Below are positions 39,199-56,337 of a stretch of DNA of 64,000 nucleotides, piece after piece (the first letter of the stretch is position 1; every line of letters begins with the position of its first letter). The notes beneath the pieces are model-generated. The model was given only the letters and a program-made list of their open reading frames with translations. It ran no database searches and was not told the origin of the DNA. This stretch comes from Tetrapyrgos nigripes (lineage: Eukaryota > Basidiomycota > Agaricomycetes > Agaricales > Campanellaceae): NCBI GenBank assembly GCA_013368315.1, contig JAACJM010000137.1, positions 124,001 to 188,000 on the forward strand. The letters run 5' to 3'. Made by a program: the position numbers and the translations under genes.

Positions 39199-40404
39199 GA
39201 TGGCGGAGTTCTGGGATGCGTAAAAAATTCCTGAATTTATTGTCAGTTGATATCAGCTTAGAAAGTGCTCACCTCGATGACCTCGATGAGAGACTGAGAG
39301 TAGTCCATGGTCTTATGTACGCCTGGGCTGGCAGAAGTCTAATTCACTGTTAGGCTATGCGACACCAAGTCCGAGTTCTTCAAGTTCGGTACTGTCAAAT
39401 GAACATTGCCTCAGCAGATCACATACCTCATCCCGTCTTAATGTATCATTCGCCAGAGTGCAAGCTCGATATTGTTAAAAAAACCATTGCCTCAGGCACC
39501 TTCATAGTACATACCTCTTCTCGTCTCGATGTATCATTTAACTGTACGGCACAAAATAAGGGGAAATTAGTCCTAAGGAGTTGATTATATTATTCAATTT
39601 TGATAGTCCAGAGAACTGATCCTGATGATGCGCTATGGCATTGATCATAAAGGAACTTGAAGAGAACCGGAGTGGGAAATGTTGATAAGTATATTGGCAG
39701 TACCAAGCCAGCGTAAATGTAGTCTGTAGAGATTTAGACGGAGTTGATGATCACTTTCGGTCATGAACGCGGAAGGATAACAAGCAGCCTTGCATTTGTA
39801 GATGATTGATCCCTCTACTCCTTATCAGTACTAGTAGAGGCTGTTCATCAATAGGCACTTATCGTTTAACCCCAGATGCATACCTAGGAATAAGTATGAT
39901 GGCTCGAACATCACGCAGCACTCGACAAGGTGGCTATTGCATCAGCTAAGACATTAGTTACAGTATGTGATCCCGCTGTGCGGACCTGAATATTCTTGGG
40001 ATCGACGTACGCGTATTATGGACGGAGTACCTTCCCGAAGCAAAGCGACTCCGAGAAAGACGACACAACTGCATCATCCACTTGTGAGCTTTCTCCCTTC
40101 CCAAGTTAGTTATGATGCACTGGGAGCTGTTAGTTCAACTTGCACCCTATAGGGTACCAATATCCGTATACCAGTGGAGTGACCCCAGAACCCATATAGG
40201 GACATTCACGGGTTGCGTCCGGCCTGGCTAGCTTGCGGCCATGTAGGTATATCGGTGGGGATTAGGACGGTGTGCTACCCATCAAGCGGCACCACTCGGC
40301 AAGCCGGAGTTAGCCCCAAAATGGGATACCGATTGCTTGACCATCGGCCCATCGTTTGATGCGATCTCTGACGCGGACATAGGGCTCATAAGACCGTTCG
40401 CTTA
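39199..40404. other. Intergenic with a short direct repeat
   Basis: No gene. At about 39409-39535 a phrase of roughly 60 bp occurs twice in direct orientation (CATTGCCTCAG ... ACATACCTC, then CGTCT, then ATGTATCATT). 40130-40400 contains TATCC/TATAC phrases vaguely like the satellite on the other side of the transposon. Confidence 0.35.
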
Positions 40405-40530
40405 CAGCGGTTTCAGTATATAATGAGAAACGCCGCGGAATTTTTTTTTTTCACCATGTAATGCGTAGCGCGTACACATGCCTGTTATAGTAATCATCCC
40501 TTGAAACGTTACTGTCATATCCTCATCGAC
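40405..40530. repeat. Left terminal inverted repeat, 126 bp
   Basis: Matches the right repeat over its whole length with only a handful of changes (CACATGCC/CACATACC, CTGTCAT/CTGTTAT, TCATCGAC/TCGTCAAC). It contains a T11-type homopolymer run, and the divergently oriented promoters of both encoded genes presumably lie at its inner edge. Confidence 0.85.
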
Positions 40531-40571
40531 ATTTTGGCTTGCGCGTTGCTACATCTGCTGATCAGTCTGCA

Positions 40572-41695
40572 ATGGGGAACCGGCGTATTAGTGAAGACAT
40601 CAAAGAGTGTGCCCTGAGGTTGTCGGAGTGTGGTTGGGATGTGTCCGACATCTGTTTTGCGCTGGGTATCTCACAGGCAAGTATCTACCGCTGGAAAAGA
40701 GTCTTCGAAACATTTGGCCAGGTCACCAAGCCACCTTCCGGCATACGAGGACGCCCACGAATCATAGGCATTGCTGCGTTCAAGCTTGCAGAAGAAATCT
40801 TCGCGCGGAATAACGACACATATCTAGATGAAGTGCAGTGGTGTCTTGCAGTAGAACTTGACATCGTCGTCTCTATCCCTGCTATACACAACGCCTTACA
40901 GCGAGCTGGCCTTACCAGGAAGCTTCTCGGAAGATAGCCCAGGAACGAGACAAAGAGCGTCACCTGTGGTTACCAAGAGACAGTCCGAACTCAATTTTCG
41001 GGAGAAGGCTACGAGTTTGTTGCTGTCGATGAATCAAGCAAGGACGAACGCACCCTTGTACGACGCTATGGATATTCACCGCGCGGTCAACGAGCCACTG
41101 TTTCTGGTCCATTTGTTCGGGGTACTCGCTATACGCTTGTAGCAGCAATGAGTGTCAAAGGGTATATTGCAGCAAGAGTTGTGGAGGGTTCGTTGGACTC
41201 TGAAGGGTTTTTTGATTTCATAATTGAGGATGTGGTATGTCTACAATGCCTCTATTGTCTGGATTGACCTGATATAAAGCTAGGTGCCGCAAATGAAACC
41301 TTTTCCTGACGTGCAGAGTGTTCTTATCATGGATAATTGTCGCATCCATCATACTGATACGCTCCTTGATATTCTAAACTCGGAAGGTGAGTAAACGAGT
41401 GCTTATCGTCACTCGTTTTTACATGATGATATGTAGGCATCATGCTGCTCTACCTACCACCTTACTCTCCTGATCTGAACCCAATCGAAGAGTCGTTTAG
41501 CACATGTATGTCTTCTCTTTATCATAACCTACTGTTTCTCAACATCAGTTCCCAGGGAAAGCATATTTACGACGCAATGCACACATTATTCAGTATGCAG
41601 ACGATCCGAAGCTTGTATTATTAGAGTCAACAGTTTGTATTACAGGGGATATGGCAACAGCATGGTTTCGTCATGCAGGGTACATCATTGAGTAG
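40572..41695 (+). pseudogene. DDE transposase (IS630/Tc1 type), frame shifted internally
   Basis: Starts MGNRRISEDIKECALRLSEC; the N-terminal part is a helix-turn-helix (CFALGISQASIYRWKRVFET). Then comes LTRKLLG and the frame closes at TAG (40935-40937). The expected continuation RKIAQERDKERH is present one frame away, and the catalytic core resumes in the first frame: FVAVDESSKDERTLVRRYGY (first D), after an intron LIMDNCRIHH (second D), after another intron YLPPYSPDLNPIEESFS (E). A final splice to acceptor TCCCAG gives WKAYLRRNAHIIQYADDPKL to the stop. All three DDE residues are present. Two compensating frame changes between about 40930 and 41010 suggest this copy no longer makes a full transposase, unless an unusual intron lies there. 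Confidence 0.75.
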
Positions 41696-41807
41696 AGTAT
41701 ACAGCTATGAATGTGTAGAAACGGTTTGATCAGGTTATCATACAGAAAGTTGCAGTTACGAAGTGCAATGGTTGAACAAAAAGAAAGTGGTAAGGTACAT
41801 AGAAGCG

Positions 41808-43646
41808 TCACTTGGATGAAACATATTCATCCCAAACACCAGCCTTCACATCACGCAAAAAACGTCTTGTGGATCTCCAGGACTGCAGCCCAAGAGAGCG
41901 CTTGAACCCAACTTCAACCCAGTCATCACGCCCAAGACTAGTGATGGCCGTATTCCCAGGAGTGTAATGGAGGCTCTGCAATCGCACCTGATGCTCGCTT
42001 ATGTCGTAATACTCGCAGAACTTGTCCAGGGACACACGGACCTTCTTGACCGGAGAATTAGGAACGAACGGAGGGGCAGAGGTGTGGACAAATGGAATCA
42101 TAGGAGGTTGGGAAGTAAACATGAAGGGATTGCGAGTTTGTTGCTGGAGCATATTCACAAGGAGGAGATCATAGAGTTGCTCACGAGAATTGTTCGAACT
42201 AGTGGCTTGAGTGTCAGCAAAAGTTGTGGCAGATGGTCCAGGAACAGGGTCAGTCGTCTTGGGTTTCTTCAAGCAGAACTTGACATCAAATGATGGGGCA
42301 GTGATAGGAGGATTGTCGTAGTCAACTCCCAGTGTACCACGAGTCTGTTTCAGACATTAGAGTTATAGAGTGAGAAATAGAAGAAACGGAAAACATACAA
42401 TGTGTGATGCCCAGCTGCTCAGGCGTGCCGCGTAGGTCATTCAGCTCCCATACTGATCCTGCTGAGTTTGTGTATGTGAGCTGATCTGGATAGAGATGGT
42501 TTTTCTTTTGGGAATAGATTTCGCGAAGCTTGTCAACGACTGGTTTGTTCTTGGCATCAAACGATAGCTGCAGTCATTTATGAGCCGATGAGTACAGTGC
42601 GATAATAGAAACTGACCTTCTGGGTTGCAACACTTGTAGCTGCTTCAGGCACCTCCACTGATGCATAGTCAAAGACAGGTGCATCGTCAATATCAGGATT
42701 GCCTGTCTCCCAGAACTATGCAGAAAATAAGATAAATGTCAAACACAGAAAAAGAGTAAAACATGTACAATATCCTGCTTTTGAGCATCCTTGGCTGGAG
42801 GATCCATGGTAAGGATAACCGAATATCCCTGCTTCTCGGTCCTGTAGGTGAAATCCTTCAAAAAAGCCTGATACCCAATCTCGTTACCAATAACTGCATC
42901 TCGGCTGGGCTGGCCCTTTGCTGCACGATACATGATGCTGGACTCTGGAAGCTGGGATACACGACAAGGCAAGGTCTTTGCGACAGCAACCAAGAAGACG
43001 GCATAAGAGTCCGTTGTCTTGATGGTGAACGGTGGGCATACGACAAAATTGGGGGGTGGTGCTTTGCTTTTACCAGCTGCAGGTGGAGGTGTATTCTTGC
43101 GAACGTTGATAGTGATGGTGAGAGTTCGGATGGGAATTGAGGGCTCAGATTCCTCAGCGCTGGGTGTAATGCTCTTTTTGAGTGTCTTGCGTCGCTTTGG
43201 AGGAGGCTTGGACTCCATGTCACTGTCAGTGTCGCCTGTCTCTTGGGTTTGCTTCTTCTGAGCAGCTGCAGCTCCTTCCTTCTCTGCCTTCAGACGTGCA
43301 CGGCACTCTCGTGCTCGCTGTGCAGCTTTCCTATTCTTCTCGGCCTTTTTATCAGCCTCAGCATCTGTTGGGACCATGGAACTACTAAACGTCGTCACTA
43401 AAACAACACTATTCTCAAAAAAGAGTTATTGAAAAAGCATATAATAGCGCACTGAGGTGTCCTTGCTCTGCCGCTTTGACTACTAACGGGACCACTTCTT
43501 CGGAGCTCTCTTGCAGCTTGAGGATCCGCCATTATCTCATCGATCTCTTCGGGAGTCAAATCGTAGTGTTCTGGGTCGGGAGGGCCAAGTTCCATCTCTT
43601 CGGAAGTCAAATCATAGTGTTCTGAGTCAAGAGGGCCAAGTTCCAT
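41808..43646 (-). CDS. Transposon-borne accessory protein (bZIP-like basic region, SAM-like C-terminus)
   Basis: Minus strand, about five exons (first 43488-43646 or a few bases longer, second about 43396-42763, then exons around 42714-42616, 42569-42402 and 42342-41808). The N-terminus has two copies of a 19-residue acidic repeat (MELGPLDSEHYDLTSEE). Exon 2 opens with DAEADKKAEKNRKAAQRARE and CRARLKAEK; NxxAAxxxR fits a bZIP basic region, though no clear leucine zipper follows. A Lys-rich nuclear-signal-like patch (PPPKRRKTLKK) comes next. The middle is unknown. The C-terminal 70 residues (VSLDKFCEYYDISEHQVRLQ ... GRDDWVEVGFKRSLGLQSW) look like a SAM-type helical domain. Every exon is open, unlike the transposase. 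Role unknown: DNA binding, transposition control or a captured host regulator. The exon 1-2 junction is the least certain. Confidence 0.7.
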
Positions 43647-43654
43647 GTTGCAGA

Positions 43655-43780
43655 GTTGACGAGGATATAACAGTAACGTTTCAAGGGATGATTACTATAA
43701 CAGGTATGTGTACGCGCTACGCATTACATGGTGAAAAAAAAAAATTCCGCGGCGTTTCTCATTATATACTGAAACCGCTG
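43655..43780. repeat. Right terminal inverted repeat, 126 bp
   Basis: Reverse complement of the left repeat, ending CCGCTG before TA. The start codon of the accessory gene (43646) lies only 9 bp inside it, so the promoter of that gene must be within the repeat or outside the element. Confidence 0.85.
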
Positions 43781-43782
43781 TA

Positions 43783-45900
43783 ATACAGACATACCGTCGG
43801 CTGAATGACGGCGATCTGCAGGGGATTGGCGCCATTTGGCATATATGTATATGATGGGGCATGATATATGTATATCATATTGGCAGTGTTTTTGGCCTTG
43901 ACGGAGGGGTATGCACTAAGAGGGAGTATACTGTAGGCATAGCGCAATCCATAGAACTGTTTGCTTAGTCCAGATATACCGCCGGATGGAGGACGACATG
44001 ACATTGCAGCCCGTTGGCATATATGTATATGGTGTGCAATGACGTATATGTCATTGCTCACGATTAAGAGCGCCGGAAGCGCAAACAGTTCATGCGCGAT
44101 CGAGGCCTTTGTGGCATATATGTATATAATACAGGCAGCCCAGTGACTACCCAAGGTTAAACCTGTAATCTTTAGTACCAATGACGAAATGCAAAGGGTT
44201 AGAATATATCTATATGCGAGATAGATTTTGGTTGATGCTGGAGTGTGGATAGCCGGTATCCCTATATCGGCCCATGGGCCTATGTCGTCCGAGTAGTTTA
44301 CAATACAGGCAGCCCAGTAGCCACCCAGGCGTGAGCATGTATTTTTTAGTAAGGAATACATGTATATAGTGGATTGATGTATATATGAGATGGATACTGG
44401 TGGATGGGCGATGTGACAAGGCCAGTATCCCTATATCGGGCCATGAACGTATGTCTTCAAAGTGTATGTTATACAGGCAGCCCAGTGACCACCCAGGCCT
44501 GAGCCAGCTATTTTTTCCGTGAAAATGTCCAAAGCTATAAGCTAGGGATGATACATACATCGGATAGATATTTTTTGATGGTGCAATGTCCAATCGCCGG
44601 TATCCCTATACCGGCCCGGAGATCTATGTAGTCCGAGTAGTGTGTTATACAGGCAGCCAGTGACTAGTGAAGCCCGAAGCCTGAGCCTGCAATGTTCAGC
44701 AATATGTATACAGTTAAAGTTTAGTGACTGGATTTATATAGTTTGGATTGATATATTTATGGTGCAATGCAAATACCCGGTATCCCTATACCGGCCTATG
44801 GAAGTATGTCGTCCAAGTGTGTGGTATACAGGAATCCGAGTGACCACCCAAGCCTGAGCCTTAGCCTGTGACTCTTCCTGATAATGACCAGATGTATATA
44901 GCTATGGGTGATCTATCCGTTAGATAGATATTCGTTGATGGTGCAGTGTGTAATGGCCGGTATCCCTATACCGGCCAATGAACGTATGTCGCTCAAGTGT
45001 GTGTTATACATGTGGCCCAGTGACCACCCAAGTCTGAGCATGAACCTTTAACTCTCCTGACAATGATGAGATTATATAACTATGGGGTTATATCCGTTGA
45101 ATAGATATTTGATGGTGCAATGTGCAATGGCGGTATCCCTATACCGGGCGACAGATGTATGTCGTCCAAGTGTGTGTTATACATGCGGCCCAGTGACCAC
45201 CCAAGCCTGAGCATGAACTGTGACTCTCCCTGATAATGACGAGATGTATATAGCTATGAGTGATATATCCGTTAGATAGATATTCGTTGATGGTGCAATG
45301 TGTAATGACCGGTATCCCCATACCGGGCCATGAACGTATGTCGCGCAAGTGTGTGTCATACATGCCGCCCAGTGACCACCCAAGCCTGAGCATGACCCTT
45401 TAACTCTTCCTGACAATGATGAGATTTCTCTAACTACGGGGGATCTATCTGTTGAATAGATATTTTGATGGTGCAATGTGCAATGGCCGGTATCCCTATA
45501 CCGGGCGACAGATGTATGTCGCCCAAGTGTGAGTTGTACAGGTGGCCCAATGACCACCCAAGCCTGAGCCTGAGTGTTTAGCTCTCCCTGATAATGACGA
45601 GATGTATATAGCCATGGGTGTTATATCCGTTAGATAGATATTCGTTGATGGTGCAATGTCCATTGGCCGGTGTCCTTATACCGGACTATGGGTGTATGTC
45701 GCGCAAGTGTGTGTTATGCAGGCAGCCCAGTGACAACCCAAGACTGAGCCTTACCTTTCGTGATAGTGACGAGATGTATATAGCTAGGGTTAATATGTAC
45801 CTCGGATACATATCTGTTGATGGTGCAATGTCAAATGGCCGGTATCCCTACTCCGGACCAAGGATCTACGTCGTCCGAGTAGTGTGTGATGTGAAATGGT
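43783..45900. repeat. Satellite array with ~177-bp units
   Basis: CCGGTATCCCTATACCGG or a close variant occurs at about 44252, 44421, 44599, 44779, 44955, 45130, 45308, 45487, 45667 and 45838, i.e. at steps of 169-180 bp. Between these hairpins, each unit repeats GTATGTCG(T/C)CCAAGTGTGT, GTTATACAGGCAGCCCAGTG followed by ACCACCCAAGCCTGAGCC, then TAGATAGATATT and GATGGTGCAATGTGCAATGG. The first ~400 bp (43.8-44.15 kb) hold a more diverged relative with GGCATATATGTATATG spaced 177 bp. Open frames in this region are by-products of the periodicity. Function unknown. Confidence 0.88.
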
Positions 45901-53733: not shown

Positions 53734-54187
53734 ATGGCCCCCGTGCTTCGTGAAAAATCCTCTCGTCATACCAAACTATCTCACCCATCACCTTACAGCC
53801 CACGTCTCCCTCTGGTCTCTGGCTGTGCTTCTTCTGCGAGAATGGATCTTGCTGAGCCTCACAACGACACACTTGATGGTATTTTTTGTGGAGAGCAGGT
53901 TGAGAAGCAGTGGCATGGTGTCGGCAGTGCGTGTCCCCGCTTCTGGGACTTCGCAGTGGCAGGAGTAGGTGAGATACCATTGTACGTCGATGTTTCGTTT
54001 CTATTTTTTCAGTCTAGCTCTTGACCATTGCAACCGTGGTGCGTAGGGATATTCGAGTGCCTCGGGAATTCTGGTTTCCCAGAATTCCCCATGGCTTGTG
54101 CGAGGGTAGACAGTGGTTGCAGCAGTACTTAACCACCATGCTTAGTGCACCAACGACTGAGGACGACTATGGCCAAGACCGAGATTA

Positions 54188-54397
54188 CAGTGGGTCAAAA
54201 AATTGTCCACATGTTTCGCATTTTTGGAAAGATTGCCAATTTAAGCAATACTGAGTAGAGATATTAAAATGTGGTCAGTGATGGGCAGAAAGCCCTTGAT
54301 AAACGCTACAATATTCTGTCTGTTTTGTCTTATTTGGCTTAAAACTCATGGAGATATGACTGATTTAAAATGGTATGTCATTTGGACAATTTTTTGA
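54188..54397. repeat. Left terminal inverted repeat of the Tc1 element
   Basis: Starts CAGTGGGTCAAAAAATTGTC. The core GTCAAAAAATTGTCC(A) appears at the outer end and again, inverted, at the inner end (about 54377-54397), so each terminal repeat is itself a large palindrome with two candidate transposase sites. Confidence 0.85.
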
Positions 54398-54427
54398 CAT
54401 GCAAGTGAAAATACAGAAAGTGCTAGC

Positions 54428-55444
54428 TCAGTACTTGGTATGCCCTCCTTTGGCCTTCAACACAGCCTCAATCCTTCTAGGCATGCTCCTGATCAATTTC
54501 TGACAATCTTCTTCTGTGATTTCATCCCACTTTTCAGCTGCTCTGTCCCATATTTCCCAAACTCCAGAGGGTGCTGTGTCATATCCATTGAGCTTGTGTT
54601 TGAGGGTTGTCCAGAGGTGTTCAATGGGGTTCAGGTCAGGAGATTGAGCAGGCCAGCTCATGCAATGGATGTTGTTGTCTTCAAACCACTTGGTGGCCAG
54701 TTTTGACTTGTGTTTAGGATCATTGTCTTGCTGAAAAATGGCCACCTCTGGATCAACACCCAAAATATCCATGCTCTCCAGAAGGTTGTTCTCCAAAATG
54801 TCCACATACTGCTCTGCATTCATCCTGCCCTCCACCTCTGCCATGTTTCCAACTCCTTCCCACCCCATACATCCCCACACCATGATATTTCCTCCTCCAA
54901 ATTTGACTGTTTCCACCACATTTCTCTCTCCCAAGGATTCACCCTTCCTCCCCCACACATACTGCTGTCCATCTGACCCATATCGATTGATTTTAGTCTC
55001 ATCTGACCAAATAACCCTTTTCCAGTCATCCACAGTCCAGTTTCTGTACTTCTGTGCAAGTTTTAAACGAGCCTTCCTGTGAGCTGCAGTGAGTTTGGGC
55101 TTCTTCTTCGTTTTAGATGTGTCCACATCATGCCTGAGAAGGGAATTTCGAATGGTTTGGGTGGAGACAGGTTGGTCAAGGAGGGGATTGATGTTTCTGG
55201 CCACTTCTGTAGCATTTTCAGCTTTGCCAGTGTTGATTTGTTGGATAGCAGCACGTTCATCAGTGGTAGACAGCTTTCTAGGACGCCCTGCTTGATGGTT
55301 CTCCTTGTCAGGATACATCTCTTTGGCCAGAGAAGCAATCTTTGACTTGGATACCCCAGTTTTAGCAGAGATTTCCCTGGATGAAGCAGAAGTTTGGAGG
55401 AGAGAGAGGATATTGTCTTTCTGGGTGGATGTGATGGGTCTCAT
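54428..55444 (-). CDS. Tc1/mariner transposase, intact, 338 aa
   Basis: Cut-and-paste transposase acting at TA sites in the nucleus. The start is placed at 55444 (MRPITSTQKDNILSLLQTSA) because the 30 codons upstream lie in what is otherwise untranslated leader and the related element at 61.4 kb aligns from here. Domains: first helix-turn-helix (REISAKTGVSKSKIASLAKE), GRPRKLS hinge, second helix-turn-helix region (NPLLDQPVSTQTIRNSLLRH), and catalytic core with all three acidic residues: KRVIWSDETKINRYGSDG (D), VAIFQQDNDPKHKSKLATKW (D) and SPDLNPIEHLWTTLKHKL (E). The D-E spacing is of the DD34E kind by estimate. Length is normal for the family. No intron is needed. Likely functional. Confidence 0.92.
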   Translation of the reverse strand: MRPITSTQKDNILSLLQTSASSREISAKTGVSKSKIASLAKEMYPDKENHQAGRPRKLSTTDERAAIQQINTGKAENATEVARNINPLLDQPVSTQTIRNSLLRHDVDTSKTKKKPKLTAAHRKARLKLAQKYRNWTVDDWKRVIWSDETKINRYGSDGQQYVWGRKGESLGERNVVETVKFGGGNIMVWGCMGWEGVGNMAEVEGRMNAEQYVDILENNLLESMDILGVDPEVAIFQQDNDPKHKSKLATKWFEDNNIHCMSWPAQSPDLNPIEHLWTTLKHKLNGYDTAPSGVWEIWDRAAEKWDEITEEDCQKLIRSMPRRIEAVLKAKGGHTKY

Positions 55445-55604
55445 GATTTGATGAGGGCTATAGAACAACTGGATGCCCTTATATATGGTCCAGCTGGCAG
55501 CTATGATATCATTATGATGTAGCCATTGCATCATTGTACAACTCCACTTATGATGTCATCTATGAGACATCACATAGTTACAATACTGATTTTGAAGTGG
55601 CAAC

Positions 55605-55814
55605 TCAAAAAATTGTCCAAATGACATACCATTTTAAATCAATCATATCTCCATGAGTTTTGAGCCAAATAGGACAAATAAACCAGATTATTGTAGCTCT
55701 TATCACGGGCGTTCTGCCCATCACTGACCACATTTCAATATCTCTACTCAGTATTGCTTAAATTGGCAATCTTTCCAAAAATGCGAAACATGTGGACAAT
55801 TTTTTGACCCACTG
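55605..55814. repeat. Right terminal inverted repeat of the Tc1 element
   Basis: Reverse complement of the left repeat; ends GACCCACTG before TA. It carries the same inner inverted copy of the GTCAAAAAATTGTCC core. Confidence 0.85.
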
Positions 55815-56337
55815 TACATGGACGCTGAGTTTGCTGAAATGTTTGCAAAGGGTCTCCAATGCCGTGCTGACATCTGGAATGCCACTTACTCTTGGTGGGA
55901 CCCCCCCACAGACTGTAAACTGCTCCCAGGAGAGCCACTCGAGCCTAAGGAATGGTTTCGTATGAATGGTGAGCATCTCACATCACACCATTGATTTTAA
56001 TTTGTCTGAACATGCGATTTTTGTGGCAGCCCAGCGGTGCCACGAGTACGGACCAACCCCCTACTTCTCAGGCTTCCAGATAGAATGTCGCCGGAAATTA
56101 TACTTCCCCATCGCCGAAGACATGCATGAGCTTGTGCACATCGAATCTTTCATCCTCAAACTCGCCAGAGCACACAGTGCTGAAGTAGAGGGAAAATTTT
56201 GTGAGGACTTGCGTTCTCGGTTACAGGCTGCTAATCAGCGCTGCCATGAGGTTTGTCTAGAGCTAGCAGCATTGAAGGACATTTCGAAAGATCTCTTTTA
56301 TCTTACAGTGGTCGCTTTGATTATTTGTAAGAAATAG

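Follow-up and report, generated by a model that had tools for sequence, protein, structure and literature searches.

Tc1/mariner transposons are the textbook case of elements for which their own transposase is enough. Ordinary members are described as usually 1.3-2.4 kb long with a single open reading frame (ORF) (PMC4188875). Ciliate Tc1/mariner-type elements with accessory genes, TBE of Oxytricha and Tec of Euplotes, are described with three ORFs, the extra products being a 57-kD zinc-finger/kinase protein and a 22-kD protein for which the descriptions drawn on here give no known domain (TBE), and a site-specific recombinase (Tec) (PMC4724952; PMC7325037; PMC12242761); a 2025 paper calls these exceptions surprising (PMC12242761). 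In Harbinger transposons, a Myb-like protein is reported to interact with the transposase, to allow joint nuclear import and to bind the terminal inverted repeats (TIRs) (PMC9179366). Here we describe an element in a 64,000-nucleotide stretch of the fungus Tetrapyrgos nigripes (assembly GCA_013368315.1, contig JAACJM010000137.1, positions 124,001 to 188,000, forward strand; hereafter the window, whose own numbering is used throughout), which we read as one copy of a two-gene Tc1/IS630-type DNA transposon family. Within this genome the second gene, referred to as the accessory gene, is linked to the transposase gene, co-inherited with it and under purifying selection.

The element spans 3382 bp (40402-43783) and is bounded by two 129-nt arms that are 97% complementary, with TTACAGCGG read at each of its two ends. 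It contains an interrupted DDE_3 transposase gene on the plus strand and a convergent, intron-containing accessory gene on the minus strand (43646-41808), which starts 9 bp inside the right repeat, as an earlier note on this DNA had described, and can be joined to 540 amino acids (aa). Two features of the Tc1/mariner-IS630 superfamily are present, namely TIRs and a DDE_3/IS630-type transposase with a helix-turn-helix (HTH) part. The parts of the element, including a motif resembling a nuclear localisation signal (NLS), are as follows.

40402..40530, plus strand: left terminal inverted repeat, beginning with TTACAGCGG; its 129 nt are 97% complementary to 43655-43783
40572..41695, plus strand: transposase gene, interrupted; HTH part 40572-40937, DDE_3 parts ~41001-41240 and 41430-41528, last part to 41695
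41808..42344, minus strand: accessory exon 5 with SAM-like C-terminal domain (~41811-42040) and stop
42388..42567, minus strand: accessory exon 4, carrying a Y..SAG..WEL module; set against relatives, its reading frame is disturbed close to the end
42617..42715, minus strand: accessory exon 3
42769..43381, minus strand: accessory exon 2 (predicted basic helix, NLS-like motif, ubiquitin/PB1-like region), as modelled in the earlier note; relatives imply a start ~19 bases earlier
43453..43646, minus strand: accessory exon 1, coding for the acidic N-terminus; set against relatives, its reading frame too is disturbed close to the end
43540..43641, minus strand: 51-bp tandem duplication in exon 1, 88% identical
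43655..43783, minus strand: right terminal inverted repeat, pairing with the left repeat

All linkage results rest on one 98.5-Mb assembly, which was searched with window exons 5 and 2, with accessory versions from the loci C2 and C5 and from a metagenome, and with two transposase pieces. All 13 window-type accessory loci (window and C359 included) are convergent with a related transposase, with 0.16-0.81 kb between the matched stretches, and inverted-repeat pairs were recovered around nine of them; C107, C2 and C5:667k yielded no TIR pair, and neither did the 3.2 kb of C359. The proposal of the earlier note that the accessory gene belongs to the element was thereby upheld and extended beyond the window, and the outcome it had named as telling against this, homologues that are mainly lone host genes without shared TIRs, is not what was found for the window type. 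Conversely, the accessory gene is carried by all 12 transposase loci with 48-100% identity over at least 95 residues, although at C2 only a transposase fragment adjoins it and the main transposase part lies ~7 kb away. In the transposase-piece search that gave these 12, the other matches show 37% identity or less, except for two short C24 fragments (81% and 73% over ~41 residues) that lack the accessory gene; one further C24 match is part of the C24 element. When the matches from both transposase-piece searches were clustered, 18 of 51 clusters had no accessory match within 3 kb, among them the split C2 element (536753), the two short C24 fragments, C230 (accessory gene 6.4 kb away) and C415, where no accessory match was found in the 2.8 kb read, which are mostly satellite. 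Dense short-period satellite lies downstream of the IS630 transposase at C415 (L063 1-1600).

Elements of the window family measure 3.2-3.8 kb and have two genes, except for a 6.2-kb copy at C104 in which an insertion appears to be present. Among the copies whose exons were read out, exon order and the main intron positions agree; in five of them the accessory gene, like that of the window, begins next to the inner edge of the repeat with an acidic stretch, although in one of the five, C24, the start region is damaged. TTACAG...CTGTAA termini occur in 11 of the 12 copies whose ends were read (the twelfth, C425, has a longer repeat outside), and the termini of window-type copies would be compatible with a TA target-site duplication within TTAA.

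FastTree trees of the accessory block and of the transposase block from 11 elements gave the same branching order, with node support of 0.65-1.0 (C2 and C359 are omitted, and each of the two C5 copies is represented in the accessory tree by a single block). The ratio of nonsynonymous to synonymous substitution (dN/dS) of the accessory gene was 0.13-0.22 in seven of eight tested pairs, each with at least 46 counted differences, and none of 200 neutral simulations, in which changes of matching kinds were placed anew, was as low; the pairs share branches. In the youngest pair, C153/C168, accessory dN/dS was 0.24 and 9 of 200 simulations were as low. For the transposase, dN/dS was 0.15-0.28 in six pairs (0 of 200 simulations as low), and two pairs, C153/C168 and C24/C279, could not be told apart from neutrality (55 and 61 of 200). 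Outside the eight simulated pairs, accessory values were 0.48 for C107/C228 and 0.53 for the C5 pair; synonymous sites are saturated in deep pairs. As judged from these substitution patterns, the accessory gene is under purifying selection in seven of the eight tested pairs. The accessory protein diverges faster than the transposase (43-47% versus ~75% to C153).

The window copy itself seems to have lost function. Pfam matches above cut-off in its transposase pieces were HTH_Tnp_1, HTH_23, HTH_28 and DDE_3, and the spacing from the second D to the E is 34 residues by hand count on translated pieces with one intron removed by inference; a stop lies at 40937, with frame changes downstream. When the intron-1 junction and exon-4 end of C153, C168 and C24 are applied to the accessory gene of the window, exons 1 and 4, as we read them, fall out of frame near their ends; exons 2, 3 and 5 are open. 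Since the earlier statement that all exons are open requires splice sites not common to the relatives, this accessory copy looks decayed, and the window copy looks inactive in both genes. It may be read as a fairly young, because its TIRs are 97% complementary, yet defective family member. In the C24 and C279 copies (L049, L050), many Arg codons of the relatives read Cys, His or Gln by eye, a pattern expected of CpG decay.

Further repeats of the window kind were seen elsewhere. At C75 (L059 1569-9329), 87-bp inverted repeats (93%) flank 7.8 kb with other open frames, including a Cys-rich one, perhaps representing another gene cargo or a nested insertion. At C425 (L058 3813-5891) and C7 (L060 3748-4596), 2.1 kb and 0.85 kb, respectively, without transposase or accessory match lie between related inverted repeats, the C425 repeat extending past TTACAG; both stretches look like non-autonomous derivatives. 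In the window, an array of diverged ~178-bp repeats with CCGGTATCCCTATACCGG-like palindromes directly adjoins the element (43825-45900).

The accessory protein would have an acidic N-terminal end, a basic helix with an NLS-like motif, a ubiquitin/PB1-like region and a SAM-like C-terminal domain. The basic stretch of exon 2 is predicted to form a single helix and is followed by KRRK-type NLS-like motifs. It had been taken for a bZIP-like basic region, an identity that finds no support: a profile hidden Markov model check of exon 2 gave no bZIP family at E<=1 in Pfam, and no leucine heptads were seen by eye. The exon-2 region that follows looks like a ubiquitin/PB1 fold. The SAM-like end reported earlier fared better, as modest evidence, including a SAM-like model, points to a SAM-like C-terminus, although no SAM family was among the Pfam matches of the window protein, seven A3 members or the C8, C359 and C309 pieces. 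Neither Myb/SANT nor YqaJ was matched at E<=1 in the accessory pieces (Pfam).

Beyond this genome, where homologues were sought as proteins, a single match was obtained: the exon-5 alignment found P0001, a 188-aa metagenome ORF (31% identity, E 6.9e-32). There were no others at the thresholds used, as the joined accessory protein had no match at E<=0.001 among 5.8 billion proteins and the exon-2 alignment none at E<=0.01. Viral contigs yielded no relative, and a sequence search of the PDB returned only T4 lysozymes (E 0.49 or worse) for exon 5 and nothing for exon 2, the C309 end or the C8 end. Within the assembly, P0001 as a query led to the accessory gene of C359 (E 0.0036), which is convergent beside a transposase of 30% identity and whose SAM-like part has 40% identity to that of C178 over 62 aa and also fits the profile of the family, with 0 of 100 shuffles scoring as well. 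The gene at C8 is likewise convergent and has a related domain at its end (hhalign probability 80; 0 of 100 shuffles); this SAM-like part was matched, whereas the exon-2 profile gave no match to the gene. The C8 end domain in turn finds C318 and C377, both convergent with their transposases (C377 E 0.0023), and C100, the one of four C8-type loci that has no IS630 transposase neighbour within 3 kb. At C309 the downstream gene is in tandem rather than convergent; read by eye, it has similar modules in the same order and a SAM-like end. This gene type matches 23 places, 17 of which lie 1.2-1.5 kb downstream of a same-strand IS630 transposase and six of which have none within 3 kb. The exon-5 profile found nothing in the C309-type gene, and in a whole-protein comparison with the window gene the best stretch was the exon-4 module, whose score was equalled in 1 of 100 shuffles; homology between the two is only suggestive. 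It is conceivable, if somewhat doubtful, that fungi have a broad, old class of two-component Tc1/IS630 elements in which a PB1/ubiquitin-like (UBL)-SAM adaptor is an obligate partner of the transposase and the adaptor gene, convergent in the lineages of the window, C359 and C8 but tandem in that of C309, has been retained through one or more inversions.

The window also contains a single-gene Tc1-type element (54186-55816) with 231-bp ends that are 91% complementary; its minus strand has a 368-aa transposase ORF free of interruptions. With only 1169 bp between its ends, it is too small for a second gene of the accessory type. A 375-aa open frame of this element recurs in many of 150 scored DDE_3 matches (368 candidates), and the element looks like part of a young, high-copy family. 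The existence of a single-gene element with a recurring frame implies that Tc1-type elements here need no second gene in general.

For the window family, we propose that the accessory protein would act as a nuclear partner of the transposase, oligomerising via its SAM-like, perhaps also its PB1-like, part and helping to recruit the transposase to the long terminal repeats or to keep it there. This role is suggested by the fixed pairing of the two genes, the congruent trees and the faster evolution of the second protein, all of which are also reported for Harbinger, and by analogy we assign a probability of roughly 0.55 to an element-encoded partner working in the way of Harbinger's Myb-like protein. 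It is possible that the accessory protein regulates transposition. The main rival is an element-encoded anti-silencing or transcription factor that counters host chromatin silencing or activates the genes of the element, for which VANC of VANDAL elements, MURB and TNPA are models. NLS-like basic stretches and a SAM-like domain would suit a chromatin or transcription protein, and purifying selection and co-inheritance fit such a factor equally well as a transposition partner; Pfam, however, recognises no DNA-binding or chromatin domain in the accessory protein, and we consider this explanation rather unlikely.

The scarcity of the clade (~12 transposase loci), set against a single-gene DDE_3 family of many near-identical copies that dominates the scored DDE_3 matches, is what might be expected if the accessory protein were self-limiting and held copy number down by repressing transposition. 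Low copy number has many possible causes, however, and nothing like an inhibitory truncated transposase was observed, making a repressor improbable. The suggestion of the earlier note that a host regulator had been captured, taken here to mean a passenger that does nothing for the element, gains something from the regulator-like protein and the introns of the gene, and the six of 23 C309-type loci and one of four C8-type loci (C100) without IS630 nearby could include host genes or decayed elements. The linkage of all 13 window-type loci to a transposase argues against it, and since the accessory and transposase trees agree a recent capture is unlikely; purifying selection likewise opposes a recent or neutral passenger, so that we give this possibility very little weight. 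Chance open frames beside a transposase, for which only the unusual splice sites required to keep the window copy open might speak, are refuted by homologues at 10 further places (E down to 1e-43 for exon 2 and 1e-39 for exon 5) and by the metagenome ORF.

Accessory genes in Tc1/mariner-type elements are already known from ciliates, and the fungal two-gene case is new within the scope of our literature search, which turned up no comparable second gene in a Tc1/mariner element of fungi (Repbase and most subscription papers lay outside it, and an earlier description is possible). The results suggest that window-type elements depend on a helper protein. With a second gene that is conserved and co-inherited, a fungal branch would provide a second, more easily tested system for why such elements carry a helper, and for whether the helper acts in nuclear import, in bringing the ends together or in escape from silencing.

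Compared with ordinary single-gene Tc1/mariner elements, exemplified in the window at 54186-55816, the window family shares a DDE_3 transposase between TIRs and differs from the usual description of 1.3-2.4 kb and one ORF (PMC4188875) in its larger size and second gene. It resembles TBE and Tec in combining a Tc1/mariner-type DDE transposase with extra element-encoded genes, which are reported to be under purifying selection and one of which is reversed in TBEs, whereas the ciliate elements have three ORFs and, by description, other accessory proteins (PMC4724952; PMC7325037; PMC12242761). PIF/Harbinger and other PHIS elements belong to another transposase superfamily, and their second protein is of the Myb/SANT or YqaJ type, neither of which was matched in the window element with its DDE_3 transposase; as described for them, however, they too are two-gene DNA transposons with a faster-diverging second protein and congruent trees (PMC9179366; PMC4482050).
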